A stretch of 21,428 nucleotides of DNA from a virus. Of this stretch, positions 3,357-13,291 are shown in pieces (positions within the stretch are counted from its first letter, which is position 1; every line of letters begins with the position of its first letter). Location: positions 1-21,428 of IMG/VR virus record IMGVR_UViG_3300008266_000583; one strand, given 5' to 3'. A program made the position numbers and the translations under genes. A model generated the notes under the pieces. The model did no database searches. It was not told where the DNA came from and saw only the letters and a list, made by a program, of their open reading frames with translations.

Positions 3357-3430
3357 GCACCTTTAGCTCAATTGGTTAGAGCAACTGACTCATAATCAGT
3401 AGGTCGCAGGTTCGATTCCTGCAAGGTGCA
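3357..3430 (+). tRNA. tRNA with CAU anticodon (Met, or Ile2)
   Basis: Acceptor GCACCTT (3357-3363) pairs perfectly with AAGGTGC (3423-3429), discriminator A3430, anticodon stem ACTGA/TCAGT, loop CTCATAA (anticodon CAT), T arm GCAGG-TTCGATT-CCTGC. The first acceptor pair is G-C, so it does not carry the initiator C1-A72 mismatch. It is elongator Met, or Ile2 reading AUA after lysidine modification. Sequence alone does not decide; the heavy use of ATA in the virion genes makes Ile2 attractive. Confidence 0.92.
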
Positions 3431-3453
3431 CTAAAAAGTAAGTTATTTGAAAT

Positions 3454-3460
3454 AAAGGAG
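3454..3460 (+). promoter_or_regulatory. Strong Shine-Dalgarno for gene 3470
   Basis: AAAGGAG lies 9 nt before ATG 3470. It stands out because most genes here have no Shine-Dalgarno sequence, as is usual in Bacteroidota. It implies either high translation or an origin outside that phylum. Confidence 0.6.
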
Positions 3461-3469
3461 AAACAAATT

Positions 3470-3787
3470 ATGGAAACAACATCTTTCGTTTTAGGTATGC
3501 TCTCGATTATTGCAGTTGCTTTTATGGCTGTGATTGTTTGGGGTATAGTTAAGATTAACAAATTAACATTTGAGTTAAAAGCTACTCACGAGTGGATAGA
3601 TAATGGTACTCGAGATAGGGATTATAATCTTCAACAAGTTTATAAAAAATTTGAAGATACAGATCGTCAAGTATCTTATGAATTTGAAAATGTTTATAGA
3701 CAAATTGCTGAGCAGCGTTCTTATACAGACTCACGATTTGATAAAGCAACAGGATCAACTGGGGCTAAACAATTAATTAAAGGATAA
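3470..3787 (+). CDS. Membrane-anchored coiled-coil protein, 105 aa
   Basis: A 105-residue protein with one transmembrane helix at about residues 6-29 (FVLGMLSIIAVAFMAVIVWG), followed by a polar, charged region (about 33-95) with heptad-like spacing and many Gln, Asp, Glu, Tyr and Arg (for example LQQVYKKFEDTDRQVSYEFE), consistent with a coiled coil. It resembles no family I can name. It follows tRNA-Met by 39 nt and is closed by a terminator, so it may be transcribed from the tRNA promoter as a tRNA-mRNA unit. Small membrane-anchored coiled coils in phages can serve lysis control or exclusion; neither is shown here. Confidence 0.7.
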   Translation: METTSFVLGMLSIIAVAFMAVIVWGIVKINKLTFELKATHEWIDNGTRDRDYNLQQVYKKFEDTDRQVSYEFENVYRQIAEQRSYTDSRFDKATGSTGAKQLIKG

Positions 3788-5424: not shown

Positions 5425-5696
5425 TAATAGCAATTGTTATATTAAGTATATTGGTTGTGATCTTAGGATACACAACCTTTAACTTACTTAGAAAAAATGA
5501 AAAACAAGAAGATATCCTTATGGGATACATGTCTTACTTAAACAAAGTATCTGATATAATTGAAATGTCAGATAAGAAACTTAAAGAAGTAGATGCAAGA
5601 GAATCATTTAAATCTGATGATGAGGTTGGTTTCTTTTTTGAATCTATTAAACAAATTCAAAGTGCTTTAAACCAATTCAATATTAAAAATCTATGA
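5421..5696 (+). CDS. Membrane-anchored coiled-coil protein, 91 aa
   Basis: A 91-residue protein with an N-terminal transmembrane helix (IIAIVILSILVVILGYTTF, about residues 2-20), a charged helical region (about 24-60) and a C-terminal segment with DARESFKSDDEVGFFFESI (about 57-75). The D-D-E-V-G-F-x-F motif is reminiscent of small proteins beside sigma genes in other T4-like phages of Bacteroidota, from memory only. Both ends overlap neighbours by ATGA. The context suggests co-expression with, and possibly membrane tethering related to, the HD protein or late sigma factor; this is inference. Confidence 0.65.
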   Translation: MIIAIVILSILVVILGYTTFNLLRKNEKQEDILMGYMSYLNKVSDIIEMSDKKLKEVDARESFKSDDEVGFFFESIKQIQSALNQFNIKNL

Positions 5697-6403
5697 GTGA
5701 AGTAGTGGTTAAACCTAAAACAAGTGGAATGTATTTCACTCAAGAAACAGAAAATGCTATTATTGAATATAATAATACTTTAGATTTTGAAGTAAGAAGT
5801 AGAATTTATAGTGATCGTATCCATTATGCTTTCTTTAAGTTAACAGAAAATATCATCCATACTTTTAAGTTTTACTACACTGAAGTAGACAATATTGAAG
5901 ACTTACAACATGAGGTAATTTCGTTTCTATTATCTAAAATTCATTTATTCAACCCAGAAAAGGGAGCTAAAGCATATTCATATTTTGGAACAATTGCTAA
6001 ACGTTATCTTATTATCTCCAATACTAAAAACTATAAAAAACGAGTAGATAAAGCCCCAGTTGAAGAATTAGAATCAGATGAAAGACATAGCTACAATATT
6101 GATGATACTCCTGTAAATCAAAAGTTAAATGTATTTATGGATCAATATGTTGATTATTGTACTAAAAATATTCATACATTGTTCCCTAAAGATGGGGATG
6201 CTAAAATAGCAGATGCAATTTTAGAGTTGTTCCGTAAAAGAGAAAGTATAGAGATTTTTAATAAAAAAGCATTATATATCTACATCCGAGAAATCATTGA
6301 TGCTAAAACACCTAAAATCACTAAAATAGCTAATAGACTTTATGATATATTTAAAGAGCACTATTATTTTTATTTAGAAAACGGGTATACAAATTTCCCA
6401 TAA
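5693..6403 (+). CDS. 55: gp55-like late sigma factor
   Basis: A 236-residue protein resembling T4 gp55, the sigma factor that directs host RNA polymerase to phage late promoters. Residues about 66-112 look like sigma-70 region 2: DNIEDLQHEVISFLL, then KIHLFNPEKGAKAYSYFGT, then IAKRYLIISNTKNYKKR. This is the helix, aromatic F-x-P-E-K, and A-Y-x-Y-x-x-x-I-A pattern of region 2.1-2.3 in gp55 homologues. No clear region 4 is present, as in gp55. The C-terminal 100 residues contain a possible helix-turn-helix (KTPKITKIANRLYDIFKEHY) and make it longer than T4 gp55 (about 185). It is last in a coupled operon and stands directly upstream of the virion module, whose genes carry the recurring ATATTTATAA element. 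Assignment by pattern, not alignment. Confidence 0.75.
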   Translation: MSEVVVKPKTSGMYFTQETENAIIEYNNTLDFEVRSRIYSDRIHYAFFKLTENIIHTFKFYYTEVDNIEDLQHEVISFLLSKIHLFNPEKGAKAYSYFGTIAKRYLIISNTKNYKKRVDKAPVEELESDERHSYNIDDTPVNQKLNVFMDQYVDYCTKNIHTLFPKDGDAKIADAILELFRKRESIEIFNKKALYIYIREIIDAKTPKITKIANRLYDIFKEHYYFYLENGYTNFP

Positions 6404-6428: not shown

Positions 6429-6770
6429 ATGAATGGTTTAGATAATATTGTGTTTGGTGGTAAAAAATTTTCTGATATATTAGAGGAGATATACAATAAT
6501 CAAAAGAAAAAAGAAAAACAAATATCTGCTCTTATATCAGAACTTAAACCATTAGTAAATGAAATAGGAGATGCTACTTTAATTGTTCCTTTAATTAAAG
6601 AATACTTAGAAATAAGTGTTAAAAATGATGAACAATTAATTAAAATGGCTACTATCATTCAGCGTATTATGAGTAATAACGGAACTGCTGAAGGCGGTTT
6701 TGGTATTTCTGAAGAAGAAAAAGCTCAATTGCTAGCCGAAATAGACAAGTTTAAAGAAGGAGGTGAGTAA
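6429..6770 (+). CDS. Hypothetical helical protein, 113 aa
   Basis: A 113-residue, largely helical protein. KFSDILEEIYNNQKKKEKQI (about 13-32) is a charged amphipathic helix, followed by LIVPLIKEYLEISVKNDEQL and KMATIIQRIM, then a Gly-rich turn and an acidic tail (EEEKAQLLAEIDKFKEGGE). It is the first gene of the virion module and shares 1 nt with the spike gene (TAATG at 6768-6772), so expression is coupled. Likely a minor baseplate, assembly or chaperone protein, by position only; no family is recognised. Confidence 0.6.
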   Translation: MNGLDNIVFGGKKFSDILEEIYNNQKKKEKQISALISELKPLVNEIGDATLIVPLIKEYLEISVKNDEQLIKMATIIQRIMSNNGTAEGGFGISEEEKAQLLAEIDKFKEGGE

Positions 6771-8080
6771 TGAGTCTTGATATTAGATTTGGTTTTGGTA
6801 ATACCATTAAATATAATGCTCCTAAATTAGATGTAAAATCAGTAACATCAACTAGCACTATTATTTCTAGTAGAGTTAGAGATATTATATTAGATGATAC
6901 TCACGATAGATTTGATGAATTTGGAGGTTGGAATAGTATAGGAACAATTTTTATTGAACCTACACTCCAACCAGTTTTTTCTGATGTCATTCCACTTATC
7001 CCAGCTTATCCTGCTTTTCCTAATATAAAACAATATCCATTAATTAATGAGATAGTTCCTATAATATATTTAGCAGATCCTAATGTAACTGAAAATACCT
7101 CAGCTGTAGCAGCTTATTATTTACCCCCAATAAATGTTTGGAATAGTCAAGTACATAATGCTGTACCTTCTTCTGATATTACTCCTGAATTAGAAGATAA
7201 AGAATACCCATTAGTAGAAGCAGGGTCTGTTAGAAGAATAACAGATCAAGACACTAGTATAGAACTAGGAAATTATTTTAATGAAAATAATGTCTTAAAT
7301 AATTACCCTCTTTTACCATACGAAGGTGATATAATATATGAGGGTAGATACAGTAATTCTATTAGATTAGGTTCTACAGTTGATAATGATAAAGTATATT
7401 CTAATCTTTGGTCATCAGGTGCTGATGAAGAAGATTTTGGTAGTCCTATAATGATATTAAGAAATGGTCAATCTAATATAGGGAGAAATATTTTAGATTC
7501 TACTGAACCATGGGTACCTACCTTAGAAAACATTAATACAGATAAATCTTCTATTTACTTAACAGCTGGACAACAAATACCTCTAGTATTATCTAGTGAT
7601 AAATCAGACTCATACGCTTCAAATACAAATAATGTACCTACAGTTCAATACTATCCAGGAGATCAAATATTACTTAATTCAGGTCAATTAGTATTTAACT
7701 CTAAAGATGACAATATTGTTTTAAGTTCAAATAAATCAATACATTTATCAGCTAATACAACTCTTAACTTTGATGCTATTAATCAAATTACTTTAGCTGC
7801 TCCTAAAGTATATCTTGGATCATCATTTGGTACTGAAGGTATACAACTACAATCAGCAGTATTAGGAGAAGAATTAACTCAAGCACTTTTAACATTCATA
7901 CAGGCTGTAGAAGCTGCCGCTGAAGCAATGACAACAAATACAGCTATCATAGGCCCAGTAGCTACTTTAACTACAGCTGGTCCTATATTAAAATCAGCTT
8001 GTACTAATCTTAAAAATACTCTTAATAATAAAAGTATTCTTTCTAATCAAGTTTTTGTTAACAAAGGATCTAAAAGGTAA
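6770..8080 (+). CDS. 5: gp5-like baseplate spike protein with beta-helix
   Basis: A 436-residue protein resembling the gp5-type central spike of T4-like baseplates. Residues about 185-265 (EGDIIYEGRYSNSIRLGST, then ILRNGQ) look like an OB-fold-type region. Residues about 300-355 form short alternating strands (QILLNSGQLVFNSKDDNIVL, SSNKSIHLSANTTLNFDAI, TLAAPKVYLGS), the repeated beta pattern of the intertwined trimeric beta-helix that pierces the outer membrane. The T4 lysozyme domain is not evident. The C-terminal 75 residues are an Ala-rich helix region after the helix (ALLTFIQAVEAAAEAM), not the needle tip. It starts with a 1-nt overlap and is followed by a 52-nt gap. Assembly as a homotrimer at the baseplate centre is known for the family. 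Confidence 0.7.
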   Translation: MSLDIRFGFGNTIKYNAPKLDVKSVTSTSTIISSRVRDIILDDTHDRFDEFGGWNSIGTIFIEPTLQPVFSDVIPLIPAYPAFPNIKQYPLINEIVPIIYLADPNVTENTSAVAAYYLPPINVWNSQVHNAVPSSDITPELEDKEYPLVEAGSVRRITDQDTSIELGNYFNENNVLNNYPLLPYEGDIIYEGRYSNSIRLGSTVDNDKVYSNLWSSGADEEDFGSPIMILRNGQSNIGRNILDSTEPWVPTLENINTDKSSIYLTAGQQIPLVLSSDKSDSYASNTNNVPTVQYYPGDQILLNSGQLVFNSKDDNIVLSSNKSIHLSANTTLNFDAINQITLAAPKVYLGSSFGTEGIQLQSAVLGEELTQALLTFIQAVEAAAEAMTTNTAIIGPVATLTTAGPILKSACTNLKNTLNNKSILSNQVFVNKGSKR

Positions 8081-8132: not shown

Positions 8133-10580
8133 ATGAACCCACAATATGTTATTTTCGTCTCAGGATTAACCTCAGAAATATCCCACGAATCTCAAATAAA
8201 CGCATTTAAAAAAGGTTATAAAGAAGATAATTTTGTTAGCTTTAGATACACAGAAATTAATAATATAAACAACTTTATTAAAAATAATGTAGTTGAGGCT
8301 GTTATATTATTTAGTAAAGCATGTTCGCTTGCTCAACAAGTAAACATTGATAAATCAAAAATATATTGTGTTGAACCTTATAATTGTAATGTAGATAAAA
8401 TAAGATATAAAGGAATACCTGCTAAAAACATGTTTATACATTATAAAGCATGTGCTAGAGGAAAAGATGCTAAAGAAGGTGCAAATGACACTAGTAGTAG
8501 TAAAAGCCATATTACCGCTTTAACTGATTCAGTCATAAAAATTTTTAAAGGAAACTCTTCTACTCCTCCTCCCTCATCTTCATCAAATCAAACCACATTT
8601 TCAGGCAAAATAACAGATGATAAAGGACAACCAGTAGTTGGAGCAACAGTAAAAATAGATCCACCTAAAGAATACCCAGATACACCTTTTCAAAATTCAA
8701 CTGAAAGTGATGAGTTTAGAAAATGGTTATTAGAAAAATATCCTGAATATAAAACTAAACCAAAACCATATAATGTTGATCCTCCTCCACAACCGAAATC
8801 TATAAACACCCAAGCGTTAAAAAAAGCATGGGATGAAAAAGGAGCAGAATATGATTCTACAGCGGCTAATTCAACATTTGCCTCTAGAGGATACATAGAT
8901 GGGTGCCCTAAATCATGTGATCCACAGGAAGTATTTTCTACTATACCTCCAAGTTTTGATAGTCTTTATGAGGTTTTGTTTCAAAAAATCAAAACTTGTG
9001 GTACAGCATGTTCATCTGAAGATCTTTATGAAGTATTTAAAAAATCAGGAACAACAAAAATGAAAGGATATGCCGCATACACTGTATTTGAATGGTTTAT
9101 CAATCGTATTAGTTATATAAGAAACTATAGTGAAAAGTATAATAAATATATTAAAGATAAAGAAGATTTAATTGCTAAAGGAGAACCATATAATCCTTTA
9201 ACAGACCCTAATTTAGAAGAGCATCACCTATATTATACTAAAGACCCAATTCTTTACGCTGATCTAAGTATACCTGAAAATAAAACTTTTGTACTTAATG
9301 TTCTTGAGAATTATGATGAACCTGCTATTTGGATGAATGAAATACTTAATATATATCAAGCACCTTGGTATTTTGATTATGGTCCTGATAAGCCAACCCA
9401 AATTATTAAACGCCCTGGTGCTTCAGATACTAGCACAGAAACTGTAACTGATAAGGATGGTAATTGGGAGATAACAACTCCTACAACTTTTGATCCTCAA
9501 ACTTCAACTGTAACTATTTCTAAAGAAGGACATGAAATTAGAGAAGTAACTAATATTCAACAGACAGGAGGAGATATAACTGGAGGAACAGGGAAACAGT
9601 TTGATTCAATTAATATTACTATACCTCCTACTCCTGATCCTACAGCTACAGCTACTAATAAAGTTAATCAAGAAGTTTTAACTGAAGAAACTAATTTAAT
9701 TAAACAACAAGGTAATTCTGAACTTTCTGCTCAAGAAAAACTAGCCAATTCAGCTAATAATAAAAAAGAAGAACTTAAAAAAACAATTATTCCTTTTATT
9801 ATAAAACTATTAGCTTCTTTTGGTAATGTAGCTTTACAGGCTATTATTTCCAAAATACCTTTAGATAAAATTTTAGATCAAATTCAATGTCCTACCCAGG
9901 CTAAATTATTAGAATTAATAAATAAACGAAATAAATTAGTTAAACAAATAAATAATGTTTATAAAACAATCAATATTTTAACCAAAGCATTATCCATAAC
10001 TAATACAGCTATAACATCCATACAAGCTGGTATAACAGTAATAGAAGCTTTACCCTACCCAGCTACAGGTGTTCCTCCTCTTGGTTTACCTCCCTTAACT
10101 TCAGGTGTTATAGAAACAACAGGTAGTGGTAAAGATGCATTAAAAGAAGCATTAAAAAAAGCTAATGTTGTTATAAGTATTGTTACTTTATCTTTAGCTG
10201 CTTTTGGGACTATATTAGGTATAGTTTTAAGATTATTAAATAATTTAGATATTTTGATACAACAATGCGCTAATGAACAAGATGTACCTTTTGAAGCAAT
10301 TAATGATGAATTAAATATTTTTGTAAACCAATCAACAGGAATTAGTAACAGTACAGTAATACAAGCAACTCAAGAAGGTAATACTTATAAAAATTTTAAA
10401 TTAGAAATTAAACTTGATGAAGCAAGTACTAATAAATACCCACGTCGTTTTGCTCAAGCTTTAAATAGACAAGGAGTACCTGTGTTAAAAACAGATTCAT
10501 CATTTGCATCTGATCCACAAGTGTTACTTGACCAACTAAGATTCATTATAGATTCAAATCCTCAGTTAACAGCTGAATAA
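8133..10580 (+). CDS. Large virion protein with split carboxypeptidase-regulatory-like domain
   Basis: An 815-residue multidomain protein. Residues 1-135 look like an alpha/beta domain (YVIFVSGLTS, AVILFSKAC, KIYCVEPYN, NMFIHYKAC, then SHITALTDSV). Residues about 155-175 (FSGKITDDKGQPVVGATVKI) are the first half, and about 435-475 (TETVTDKDGNWEI, TVTISKEGHEI) the second half, of a CarboxypepD-regulatory-like beta sandwich. About 255 residues are inserted between them. The insert holds EFRKWLLEKYPEY with QALKKAWDEKGAEY (about 194-240), a motif pair seen in phage virion and lysozyme proteins, and two Cys-x3-Cys pairs (258/262, 289/293) that could bind a metal. Residues about 545-815 are helical with hydrophobic stretches (VISIVTLSLAAFGTILGIVL). 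It lies between spike and gp25, so a baseplate hub or wedge role is likely. No late element precedes it. Confidence 0.65.
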   Translation: MNPQYVIFVSGLTSEISHESQINAFKKGYKEDNFVSFRYTEINNINNFIKNNVVEAVILFSKACSLAQQVNIDKSKIYCVEPYNCNVDKIRYKGIPAKNMFIHYKACARGKDAKEGANDTSSSKSHITALTDSVIKIFKGNSSTPPPSSSSNQTTFSGKITDDKGQPVVGATVKIDPPKEYPDTPFQNSTESDEFRKWLLEKYPEYKTKPKPYNVDPPPQPKSINTQALKKAWDEKGAEYDSTAANSTFASRGYIDGCPKSCDPQEVFSTIPPSFDSLYEVLFQKIKTCGTACSSEDLYEVFKKSGTTKMKGYAAYTVFEWFINRISYIRNYSEKYNKYIKDKEDLIAKGEPYNPLTDPNLEEHHLYYTKDPILYADLSIPENKTFVLNVLENYDEPAIWMNEILNIYQAPWYFDYGPDKPTQIIKRPGASDTSTETVTDKDGNWEITTPTTFDPQTSTVTISKEGHEIREVTNIQQTGGDITGGTGKQFDSINITIPPTPDPTATATNKVNQEVLTEETNLIKQQGNSELSAQEKLANSANNKKEELKKTIIPFIIKLLASFGNVALQAIISKIPLDKILDQIQCPTQAKLLELINKRNKLVKQINNVYKTINILTKALSITNTAITSIQAGITVIEALPYPATGVPPLGLPPLTSGVIETTGSGKDALKEALKKANVVISIVTLSLAAFGTILGIVLRLLNNLDILIQQCANEQDVPFEAINDELNIFVNQSTGISNSTVIQATQEGNTYKNFKLEIKLDEASTNKYPRRFAQALNRQGVPVLKTDSSFASDPQVLLDQLRFIIDSNPQLTAE

Positions 10581-10596: not shown

Positions 10597-10947
10597 ATGA
10601 AAACAGATATGTTAAAAAAGTTAATTAAAGAAGCAGTTCGTGAAGCAATTCAAGAAGAAATTAAAGATATACTTCTTGAAGCTGTACGTTCTCCCAAAAC
10701 TGTAGTTACTGAAAATGCTGATCCTTTAGCTTTTAATATAAAGACTACATCAACTAATATCAACCCAGATATTAAACGTAACTTACGCAATATGATTGGA
10801 GGTGAATTTGACACTATGATAACTGCTAATTCATCACATGCTCAACCAACTTATACTCCTCCTCCTGTTAGCACAGTAGGTGAAGGTTCAAGTTTACCTG
10901 GTGGAGAAGTAAGTTTAGATCAAATAATGGGATTAATGACTAAATAA
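10597..10947 (+). CDS. Small virion-module protein, 116 aa
   Basis: A 116-residue protein. Residues 1-30 form one amphipathic charged helix (MLKKLIKEAVREAIQEEIKD), followed by an extended, Pro/Thr/Ser-rich region (about 60-105, with TYTPPPVS) and a short C-terminal helix. A second ATG at 10609 (residue 5) would keep the helix. It ends in TAATG, sharing 1 nt with gp25. The family is unknown. Position between large virion proteins suggests a small structural or assembly protein. Confidence 0.55.
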   Translation: MKTDMLKKLIKEAVREAIQEEIKDILLEAVRSPKTVVTENADPLAFNIKTTSTNINPDIKRNLRNMIGGEFDTMITANSSHAQPTYTPPPVSTVGEGSSLPGGEVSLDQIMGLMTK

Positions 10948-11414
10948 TGGCTATTAGATTACCAAATAAACATCCTTTAGATATAAATAAGCGAGTTGCT
11001 GTTGGGGTATCTATTCCTTTTAATGGTGTTCCAACCCAACCAAACAATGTATTATTTAGTGGTTCTACATTCCCAACTCCTGCTCCTTTAGGCAATTCAG
11101 TGTTTAATTCTACTTATACAACTGTAGACCAAATTAAATCAAATATAATTAATTATGTTTTAACAAATAAAGGAGAACGTGTTTTGAATCCTGATTTTGG
11201 TTCAAATTTAAGAAATTTTATATTTGAAAATACAACTGAATCAAATTTAAGAGCTCTAGAAATAAAATTAACTAATGATATTAAAAATAATTTTCCTAGT
11301 GTAAATGTAATATCATTAACATTAACACCATCTTATGAAGAAAATGCTATCCAATTAAATATAGTATATTCAATTTATGGTAGTAATGCTCAAAATATAC
11401 AAATAATATTTTAA
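10947..11414 (+). CDS. 25: gp25-like baseplate wedge protein
   Basis: A 155-residue protein with the GPW/gp25 domain at about residues 55-150. The key block is DQIKSNIINYVLTNKGERVL-NPDFGSNLRNFIFE (about 61-95), the family's I-x-x-L-L-T-x-x-G-E-R-x-x-x-P-x-F-G-S-x-L pattern, followed by a helix (LRALEIKLTNDIKN) and the strand pair VNVISLTLTPSYEE, AIQLNIVYSIYG. In T4-like phages, gp25 joins the gp6 ring to the sheath-initiation region of the baseplate. The N-terminal 50 residues are extended and Pro-rich. It is followed 2 nt later by gp6, the conserved order in many contractile-tail modules. Confidence 0.9.
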   Translation: MAIRLPNKHPLDINKRVAVGVSIPFNGVPTQPNNVLFSGSTFPTPAPLGNSVFNSTYTTVDQIKSNIINYVLTNKGERVLNPDFGSNLRNFIFENTTESNLRALEIKLTNDIKNNFPSVNVISLTLTPSYEENAIQLNIVYSIYGSNAQNIQIIF

Positions 11415-11416
11415 AT

Positions 11417-13291
11417 ATGGCCACTGAAAATAGAGATATAAAATATGTAAATAAAGATTTTGGTGAATTAAGAAATGCTCTTATTGAGTATACTAAAACT
11501 TATTTTCCTTCAACATATAATGACTTTTCCCCATCCTCTCCAGGTATGTTATTTTTGGAAATGTCTGCTTATGTAGGTGATATAATGTCATTTTATCTTG
11601 ATAATCAAATTCAAGAAAATTTCATTCAATTTACTCGCCAACAAAATAATCTCTATACTTTAGCTTATATGCTAGGTTACAGGCCTAAAGTAACAGGTGT
11701 AGCCACAGTAGATATTGATGTGTATCAACAAGTTCCTTCAATATTGTTAGGTGATACTTATGTACCTGATTATAATTATGCTATACAAATAGCTGAAAAT
11801 ACTTCTTTATCTTCAACCACAGTTGGTAACACAAATTTCTTAATTCAAGATCCTATTGATTTTTCATTCTCTAGTTCTACTGATCCTACACAAGTGACTG
11901 TATTAACTATTGATACCATTACCAACAACCCAGAATTTTATCTCCTTAAAAAAACTCGTAAAGCTATATCAGCTACCATACAAACTACAACATTTAATTT
12001 TGGATCAACTGAACGTTTTCAAACTATTGAGATAGATGATTCTAATATAATTCAAATATTAGATATAGTAGATAGTGATAGTAATGAATGGTATGAAGTG
12101 CCATATTTGGCTCAAGAAATGATATTTGACACTATTAAAAATACAAATCCAAATGATCCAAATACTTACACTGATGAAAGTGAAGTCCCATATTTATTAC
12201 AATTAAGAAAAGTACCTCGTAGATTTGTAACTCGTTTTACCTCTCCTACTACTCTTCAAATTCAATTTGGTGCTGGTACTAATACTCAAAATAATGATGA
12301 AGAAATCATCCCTAACTCAGATAATATTGGTTTAGGTTTACCATATAAACGTTCATTATTAACTACAGCGTTCTCACCAGCTAATTTTTTATATACTGAT
12401 ACTTATGGTATATCCCCAAGTAATACAACTTTAACAATTAGATACTTAACAGGTGGTGGTGTAACAGCTAATGTCCCGGCTAATGCTTTTAATACTATAG
12501 ATAACACATCAAATATTAAATTTCAAAATAATAATTTAGACCCAATCTTATCCCAAATAGTATTTAATTCTGTGGCTGCTCAAAATCCATTAGCTGCTAC
12601 TGGTGGACAAGATGGTGATTCTCCTGATGAAATAAGATTTAACTCTTTATCAACATTTGCTACTCAATTAAGAACTGTAACTCAAGATGATTATTTGGTT
12701 AGAGCTTTAAGTATGCCTCCTCAATATGGAACTATTTCAAAAGCATACATTGAACCACAAAAATTAGAAAACATTCTCCCAGGTGAGACTCCATCTATTT
12801 TAGATTTATATGTTTTAGCTTTTGATAATGACAAAAAATTAAAAAACGCCTCTATAGCTTTAAAACAAAATTTAAAAACATATTTATCTCAATATAGGGT
12901 TATTAATGATTCTATTAAAATTAAAGATGCTTTTATTATTAACATTGGAGTTGAATTTGATTTAATAATTCTCCCAGAGTATAACAATAATGAAGTAATA
13001 TTCAATTGTATTAAACAGTTACAAGACTATTTTAATATTGATAAATGGCAAATAAATGAACCTATTATATTAAGAGATTTATATATTTTGTTAGATAGAA
13101 TAGATGGTGTTCAAACTGTTAAAACTATTAATATTATTAATAAAGTAGGTGTTAATTTAGGTTACTCACCTTACGCTTATGATATCATGGGTGCTACTCA
13201 AAATAATATTATTTATCCTTCATTAGATCCTATGATTTTTGAAGTTAAATATCCTAATACAGATATAATAGGTCGTGTAGTACCTTTGTAA
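11417..13291 (+). CDS. 6: gp6-like (baseplate J type) wedge protein
   Basis: A 624-residue protein close in length to T4 gp6 (660). The N-terminus (YVNKDFGELRNALIEYTKTY, then SPSSPGMLFLEMSAYVGDIM and FYLDNQIQENF, residues about 10-75) is the conserved wedge region. The baseplate_J core follows with GGGVTANVPANAF (about 350-362), then GGQDGDSPDEIRFNSLSTFA, QLRTVTQDDYLVRAL (about 395-435). The C-terminal third has the ferredoxin-like repeats seen in gp6 (VINDSIKIKDAFIINIGVEF, then RDLYILLDRIDGVQTVKTI). gp6 dimers form the inner baseplate ring that controls sheath contraction. It follows gp25 by 2 nt, and its stop is 6 nt before the next late element. Confidence 0.9.
   Translation: MATENRDIKYVNKDFGELRNALIEYTKTYFPSTYNDFSPSSPGMLFLEMSAYVGDIMSFYLDNQIQENFIQFTRQQNNLYTLAYMLGYRPKVTGVATVDIDVYQQVPSILLGDTYVPDYNYAIQIAENTSLSSTTVGNTNFLIQDPIDFSFSSSTDPTQVTVLTIDTITNNPEFYLLKKTRKAISATIQTTTFNFGSTERFQTIEIDDSNIIQILDIVDSDSNEWYEVPYLAQEMIFDTIKNTNPNDPNTYTDESEVPYLLQLRKVPRRFVTRFTSPTTLQIQFGAGTNTQNNDEEIIPNSDNIGLGLPYKRSLLTTAFSPANFLYTDTYGISPSNTTLTIRYLTGGGVTANVPANAFNTIDNTSNIKFQNNNLDPILSQIVFNSVAAQNPLAATGGQDGDSPDEIRFNSLSTFATQLRTVTQDDYLVRALSMPPQYGTISKAYIEPQKLENILPGETPSILDLYVLAFDNDKKLKNASIALKQNLKTYLSQYRVINDSIKIKDAFIINIGVEFDLIILPEYNNNEVIFNCIKQLQDYFNIDKWQINEPIILRDLYILLDRIDGVQTVKTINIINKVGVNLGYSPYAYDIMGATQNNIIYPSLDPMIFEVKYPNTDIIGRVVPL

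Follow-up and report, generated by a model that had tools for sequence, protein, structure and literature searches.

A transthyretin-like sandwich split by a nested insert in a putative modular tail-tip protein encoded beside viral baseplate genes

A gene of IMG/VR virus record IMGVR_UViG_3300008266_000583 encodes a protein of 815 amino acids (an identical protein is also found in a second IMG/VR contig) in which the beginning and the end of what appears to be a single beta-sandwich lie far apart. Are these two parts the halves of one interrupted domain, what has been placed between them, and what might such a protein do in a phage particle? The window analysed here is the entire virus record (21,428 bases), and the features discussed are collected in Table 1. 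An initial annotation of the sequence had proposed a carboxypeptidase-regulatory-like domain split by a long insert, which could display a peptidoglycan- or glycan-contacting module from the baseplate.

Table 1. Positions of the 815-residue product, its parts and the adjoining genes in the window
Feature	Residues	Position	Strand	Basis
Upstream spike-like protein (putative)		6770..8080	+	sequence, gene order
Whole ORF, putative modular tail-tip protein	1-815	8133..10580	+	sequence and relatives
Head, alpha/beta module, possibly cutinase-like hydrolase	1-140	8133..8552	+	alignment, model, aligner
Ser/Pro-rich linker	141-152	8553..8588	+	sequence
Sandwich, first half	153-178	8589..8666	+	profile, model, superposition
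Insert, in loop between sandwich strands 2 and 3	179-432	8667..9428	+	alignment, loop lengths
FRKW...KKAW two-helix module	180-240	8670..8852	+	alignments; predicted helices 189-202, 227-240
Four-Cys helical module (Cys258/262/289/293)	241-432	8853..9428	+	alignment, search, family count
Sandwich, second half	433-505	9429..9647	+	Pfam, profile, model, superposition
Conserved C-terminal helical region (presumed anchor) and small C-terminal alpha/beta part	506-815	9648..10577	+	alignment, relatives, model
gp25-like baseplate wedge protein		10947..11414	+	Pfam GPW_gp25 E 1e-7, phrog_261 E 3e-18
gp6-like baseplate wedge protein		11417..13291	+	phrog_10646 E 6.2e-13, phrog_219 E 2.3e-8

The baseplate setting assumed by the initial annotation agrees with the genes downstream, which are gp25-like and gp6-like. 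Both PHROGs matched by the second of these are labelled 'baseplate wedge subunit', and the name gp6 is suggested by the position of the gene. The product of the gene directly upstream had no family match in Pfam or PHROGs, but from its sequence and the gene order it looks like a spike. It is this gene order that points to the tail tip as the probable place of the 815-residue product. Elsewhere in the window we observed a DUF932 protein (1693-2493, E 1.6e-29), a tRNA-Arg (tct; 2826-2900) and a tRNA-Met (cat; 3357-3431), the latter overlapped by a minus-strand ORF (3376-3561) that is probably no gene; upstream of the tail genes, 5693-6403 has weak sigma-70 region 2 / late sigma factor-like matches.

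A search with the conserved C-terminal part of the protein gave 396 places in viral contigs. The best 80 of these 396, together with six first loci and after removal of identical sequences, make up a family set of 62 distinct ORFs, including that of the window (loci are numbered with the prefix L). Eight members carry an FRKW motif: the window, L002, L003, L004, L006, L011, L012 and L015. Among the relatives collected is a protein of the Flavobacterium phage immuto (QQO92073.1; L008:11581-12696), which is annotated as DNA repair ATPase RecN. Despite this annotation, its C-terminal part (24% identity) and the place of its gene ahead of genes of gp25 and gp6 type agree with the tail-tip family; unlike the window protein it has only 371 a.a., and Pfam finds no sandwich or head in it.

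The two strand motifs from which a split domain had been proposed are where the initial annotation put them, FSGKITDDKGQPVVGATVKI at residues 156-175 and TVTDKDGNWEI at residues 437-447. The Pfam family CarboxypepD_reg (PF13620) matches the window protein with a total E of 1.1e-6 over two stretches, the better of which aligns residues 430-481 with positions 25-73 of the 82-position profile. The score of 29.3 bits is below the curated cut-off of the family (32.3), and we therefore call the domain CarboxypepD_reg-like rather than a member of the family; among four close relatives scanned, L002 passes the cut-off (33.8 bits) and L003, L004 and L006 are below it. We made a sandwich profile from seven insert-free relatives, which it matches without interruption; the window protein is matched in two pieces: profile positions 7-34 align with residues 153-178 (a weak match, 4.0 bits, E 0.16) and positions 29-105 with residues 424-505 (21.7 bits). 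As these are two pieces of one profile, the break lies inside one domain. The profile likewise falls into two pieces in the seven other insert-bearing relatives; in four of them (L003, L006, L011 and L012) the first piece extends into the insert.

The distance between the first strand motif and the TDxDG turn leads to the same place in the domain. It could be measured in 27 of the 62 ORFs of the set from the best 80 of the 396 places, the expressions used giving no value for the other 35: 30-31 residues in 10 ORFs, 35-99 in nine (35-66, and 99), 173-197 in six, 252 in L002 and 283 in the window, the longest loop among those measured. This series indicates stepwise growth of one and the same loop. 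A contiguous PF13620 domain has a short loop between strands 2 and 3, and it is here that the window protein departs from its insert-free homologues (283 versus 30-31 residues, and a profile in two pieces versus an unbroken one), as the initial annotation had led us to expect.

An AlphaFold2 model of the full-length protein (20 sequences; mean pLDDT 58.2, pTM 0.38) is of modest confidence, and it cannot be taken as separate from the sequence comparison, as its input alignment itself lines up both halves. In this model the halves form one sandwich, which has the transthyretin-like fold of PF13620; the strands are at residues 153-161, 172-176, 435-438, 444-450, 459-463, 470-473 and 487-496, and the ten-residue blocks holding them have pLDDT values of 57-84. 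The initial annotation, which a model with the halves apart would have contradicted, thus passes this check. Foldseek with the full-length model gave no match at E <= 0.001. A second structure aligner superposed both halves together on human carboxypeptidase D (5aq0_B; Z 11.4, rmsd 2.0, 81 of 82 residues, 16% identity, model residues 154..501) and on the NTE domain of a SusC protein (9hfj; Z 11.4, rmsd 2.2, 80 of 80 residues, 29% identity, model residues 152..504). Both share the sandwich fold with the window protein; unlike it, their chains have only 82 and 80 residues and hence lack the long insert.

Could the halves nevertheless belong to two separate domains? The weak match of the first half alone, the modest confidence of the model and the pairing of the halves in the alignment behind it leave such a reading some room, but it does not explain why the profile is unbroken in insert-free relatives, nor why the halves together superpose on single transthyretin-like domains over 80-81 residues. 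We consider it very improbable, and rejected it on the profile break, the joint superposition and the loop lengths. One sandwich split by a nested insert of ∼254 residues is thus well supported by the sequence comparison and by the predicted model.

The insert is a composite of two parts: an FRKW...KKAW helical pair and a four-Cys helical module. The initial annotation had recognized the motif pair (FRKW at residues 195-198, KKAWDEKG at 230-237) and the two C-x3-C pairs (Cys258/262 and Cys289/293) but had overlooked that they belong to distinct modules. Between residues 189 and 407 the AlphaFold2 model has helices only, followed by a hairpin at 412-426, and the insert as a whole is poorly modelled (pLDDT 33-73 in blocks). 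The two modules also differ in their occurrence. The FRKW...KKAW pair is found in eight of the 62 distinct ORFs of the family (window included; set from the best 80 of the 396 places) and is strongly conserved there: 36 of its 61 columns are invariant among the eight sequences, with a mean column identity of 87%. The four-Cys module is found in two of these eight members, the window and L002, and a search with it gave nothing beyond the virus of the window and L002. Conservation of the four cysteines, which had been suggested as a check, holds as far as the module goes: all four are kept in L002, which is otherwise 39% identical to the window in this module, but the module is present in these two proteins only. 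From this pair of sequences, either zinc binding or disulphides may be what the four Cys serve. The other six FRKW members have, instead of the Cys module, a segment of the type YEVKDQDGN...A..A before FRKW. By eye, a short segment Y-x-V-x-(D/N)-x-x-(G)...A-x-x-x-A can be seen before FRKW in L003, L004, L006, L011, L012 and L015, and also, at varied places, in L019, L026, L031, L046, L054 and L057.

Searches for the FRKW module by sequence similarity found little. The 60-residue module of the window had no match by tblastn against phages, nor had the module of L099; a profile of the module gave a single match among solved structures (E 0.77), and a sequence search of solved structures gave none for the L003 protein and nothing better than E 0.39 for the window protein. 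With a DNA pattern for a variant, FRKWVN..YP, which does not include the second motif, we collected seven stretches, six of which have the second motif. A looser FRxW pattern matched 44 stretches; the second motif is present in 25 of them, versus 110 of 2095 control windows examined with the same fixed expression; five further stretches (L113, L116, L141, L142 and L143), module-like by eye or cut off, are outside the 25. We scanned 23 FRxW-type ORFs with Pfam (20 of the 25 with the second motif, plus L113, L116 and L142; mostly read from stop to stop) and found a wall-type domain in six of them: CHAP in L103, L118 and L139, Amidase_2 in L124, a TseH-like domain in L129 and LysM in L104. The other 17 have no wall-type domain: in 15 no domain passed the thresholds used, the sole exception being a tape-measure match below the cut-off in L099, and two have a SET match. 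Both ORFs with the SET-domain match (L113:798-2504 and L142:474-3203) contain an FRxWVN stretch.

In the four ORFs with CHAP or Amidase_2 (L103, L118, L139 and L124), which share the FRxWVN...A(W/Y) motif pair with the window protein, the module is found at the C-terminal end of the enzyme or close to it; in the window protein, by contrast, it is nested in a loop of the sandwich. Many endolysins have their binding domain at the C-terminus. The company of wall-type domains in six of the 23 ORFs makes it plausible that the FRKW module contacts peptidoglycan or another part of the wall.

Two other readings of the insert have to be weighed against wall contact, and we judge both unlikely. The insert may be an adhesin on the outside of the baseplate that binds a receptor or a surface glycan and is unrelated to the cell wall. 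Its variability, with two optional sub-modules that differ among the eight members, is what one would expect of a host-facing part; the FRKW core, on the other hand, is strongly conserved, within the family it always occurs with an N-terminal head, and outside the family it has the wall-type partners described above. Alternatively, the insert may be a structural spacer or contact element, in which growth of the loop is tolerated and none of the added modules takes part in binding. This would suit the stepwise loop lengths, the partly Pro/Thr-rich filler in the loops and the 17 of 23 scanned ORFs without a wall-type domain, but a mere spacer would hardly keep 36 of 61 columns invariant, nor would its motif pair be expected to recur as it does among the FRxW pattern matches relative to the control windows. 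Contact with the wall remains the reading that we carry further.

The initial annotation, which rightly saw the split domain, missed the exchangeable head at the N-terminus of the protein. A head is present in all eight FRKW members and is lysozyme-like in seven, the closest relatives of the window, where it has ∼215-225 residues; this lysozyme-like head is absent from the window. Among the four relatives scanned, L004 (E 7e-14) and L006 (E 6.6e-12) match the endolysin family phrog_90, and for the heads of L002 and L003 the only PHROGs matched are unnamed; the heads of the seven align with each other, and the other three are called lysozyme-like by their alignment with the scanned four. Compared with Pfam, the relatives' heads matched no family. 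A profile of the seven heads found 21 ORFs among 106 records, each of them a copy of one of the seven, and had no match in the window. As the window head also matches no endolysin or lysozyme family in PHROGs or Pfam, none of these searches shows it to be lysozyme-like. The other 54 of the 62 ORFs (set from the best 80 of the 396 places) have neither head type; five of these 54 are truncated at the N-terminus. These comparisons support an exchange of heads between the window and its seven closest relatives.

What, then, is the window head? Sequence searches (residues 1-118) found it only in its own virus among the viral contigs, with no match in the phages collection or in Pfam, and PHROGs gave nothing better than E 0.05; a DNA pattern searched on genome contigs gave 128 matches, none of which was confirmed. 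A DNA pattern made from its GIPAKN stretch gave seven stretches, including its own virus, L109 and L111 (which have the same protein) and L110; the other three proved not to be relatives of the head. The window head aligns with L109 at 32.8 bits and with L110 at 28.4 bits, and 26 positions are invariant in the three sequences, five of the 26 being fixed by the search pattern. Among the invariant positions are Ser61, Glu81 and His126, a candidate nucleophile, acid and histidine of a hydrolase; Glu81 would stand in the place of the Asp of cutinases.

In the full-length AlphaFold2 model nearly all of the head has pLDDT < 50; refolded with its two relatives it reached a pLDDT of 75.9 and a pTM of 0.75, with Ser61 right after a strand (53-60) and at the start of a helix. 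In the second aligner (VIA) cutinases make up 44 of the 50 rows listed for this model, mostly entries of one Fusarium enzyme, the best with Z 8.9 and rmsd 3.5 over 132 residues. The scores of folds unrelated to cutinases are close enough to count as a tie: Z 8.6 for a designed protein, 8.2 for PurE, 8.1-8.2 for LacI-type regulators and 8.0 for a receiver domain. Foldseek places flavodoxins first (E 4.3e-3) and an alpha/beta hydrolase ninth; the best match among viral models carries the name esterase D-like hydrolase (E 5.8e-3). From the sequence and the model we read the window head, at low to moderate confidence, as an alpha/beta module and possibly a small hydrolase, perhaps a cutinase-like one. 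A possible hydrolase head where close relatives have a lysozyme-like one is the point of more interest.

We give an even chance to the reading that the product is a modular tail-tip protein, associated with the spike or hub of a phage with a T4-like baseplate, that carries exchangeable envelope enzymes on a sandwich carrier. The conserved C-terminal helical part would anchor the protein, and the transthyretin/CarboxypepD_reg-like sandwich in its middle would serve as a presentation domain with one loop that tolerates insertions; in the FRKW clade this loop would hold the FRKW...KKAW module, together with the four-Cys module in two members. The N-terminus would bear the exchangeable head, lysozyme-like in seven relatives and a different alpha/beta module, perhaps a cutinase-like enzyme, in the window. 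On infection the head may act on the host envelope, with the inserted modules holding or guiding it against the wall. More doubtful, though conceivable, is that the tail-tip enzyme is a swappable cartridge in one fixed place on the split transthyretin-like carrier, a lysozyme in the close relatives and here an alpha/beta hydrolase that cleaves esters or amides and attacks a lipid or acylated component of the envelope instead of, or besides, peptidoglycan, the same cartridge being able to sit on the tip of the neighbouring spike too.

Parts of this arrangement are known from other systems. In phage T4 the tail lysozyme of gp5 sits on the cell-puncturing beta-helical spike, and the likeness consists in a wall-cutting enzyme domain in the tail-tip complex beside the spike (PMC3004832); in gp5, however, the lysozyme occupies a central stretch of the spike chain itself (PMC3004832), whereas the head of the window is on a separate protein with a transthyretin-like sandwich and, by the searches described above, is not lysozyme-like. 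In VgrG proteins of type VI secretion systems (T6SS) that have DUF2345, a transthyretin-like domain binds the phospholipase Tle1, for whose effector group a GxSxG motif is named (PMC10433429, PMC6730261). In both cases a transthyretin-like domain near a gp5-like spike would present an envelope-active enzyme; the enzyme of the T6SS is a bound cargo and the transthyretin-like domain lies within VgrG itself (PMC10433429, PMC6730261), whereas in the window the head and the sandwich are one polypeptide, the gene adjoins a spike-like gene and the sandwich has an insert. Among the papers under an open licence, to which our literature search was limited and which do not suffice to establish absence, we found none on such an arrangement. 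Tail-tip enzymes help to decide which envelopes a phage breaches. A clade with one anchor and one carrier, and with varied heads and loop modules, would allow the chemistry of entry to be compared module by module, and it may offer a phage parallel to the transthyretin-like adaptor of VgrG; FRxW...AW is a recurrent module without a Pfam match of its own and a candidate for tests of wall binding.

The exchange of modules extends to the genes next to the tail-tip gene. In L109 and L111 the head module forms the C-terminus of a spike-like protein, which over its main part shares 39% identity with the product of the upstream gene of the window; among the 56 distinct spike-type ORFs listed, this protein alone is extended at the C-terminus by more than a few residues. 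Between the spike gene and the gene of the C-terminal protein, 12 of the 53 loci with both genes visible have an extra reading frame (two of the 12 being the same frame). Six of the seven intervening frames scanned with Pfam have a CarboxypepD_reg match, only that of L036 being above the cut-off, and the corresponding gene of L111 had no Pfam match. With these sandwich-bearing frames, the interval appears to be one that repeatedly joins a sandwich with other modules: in L063:3975-4958 and L066:3949-4953, for example, a CarboxypepD_reg-type sandwich is fused to DUF5675 (E 1.7e-10 and 3.9e-13, respectively). Both fusion genes contain a HAGSSENSS.GCI stretch.
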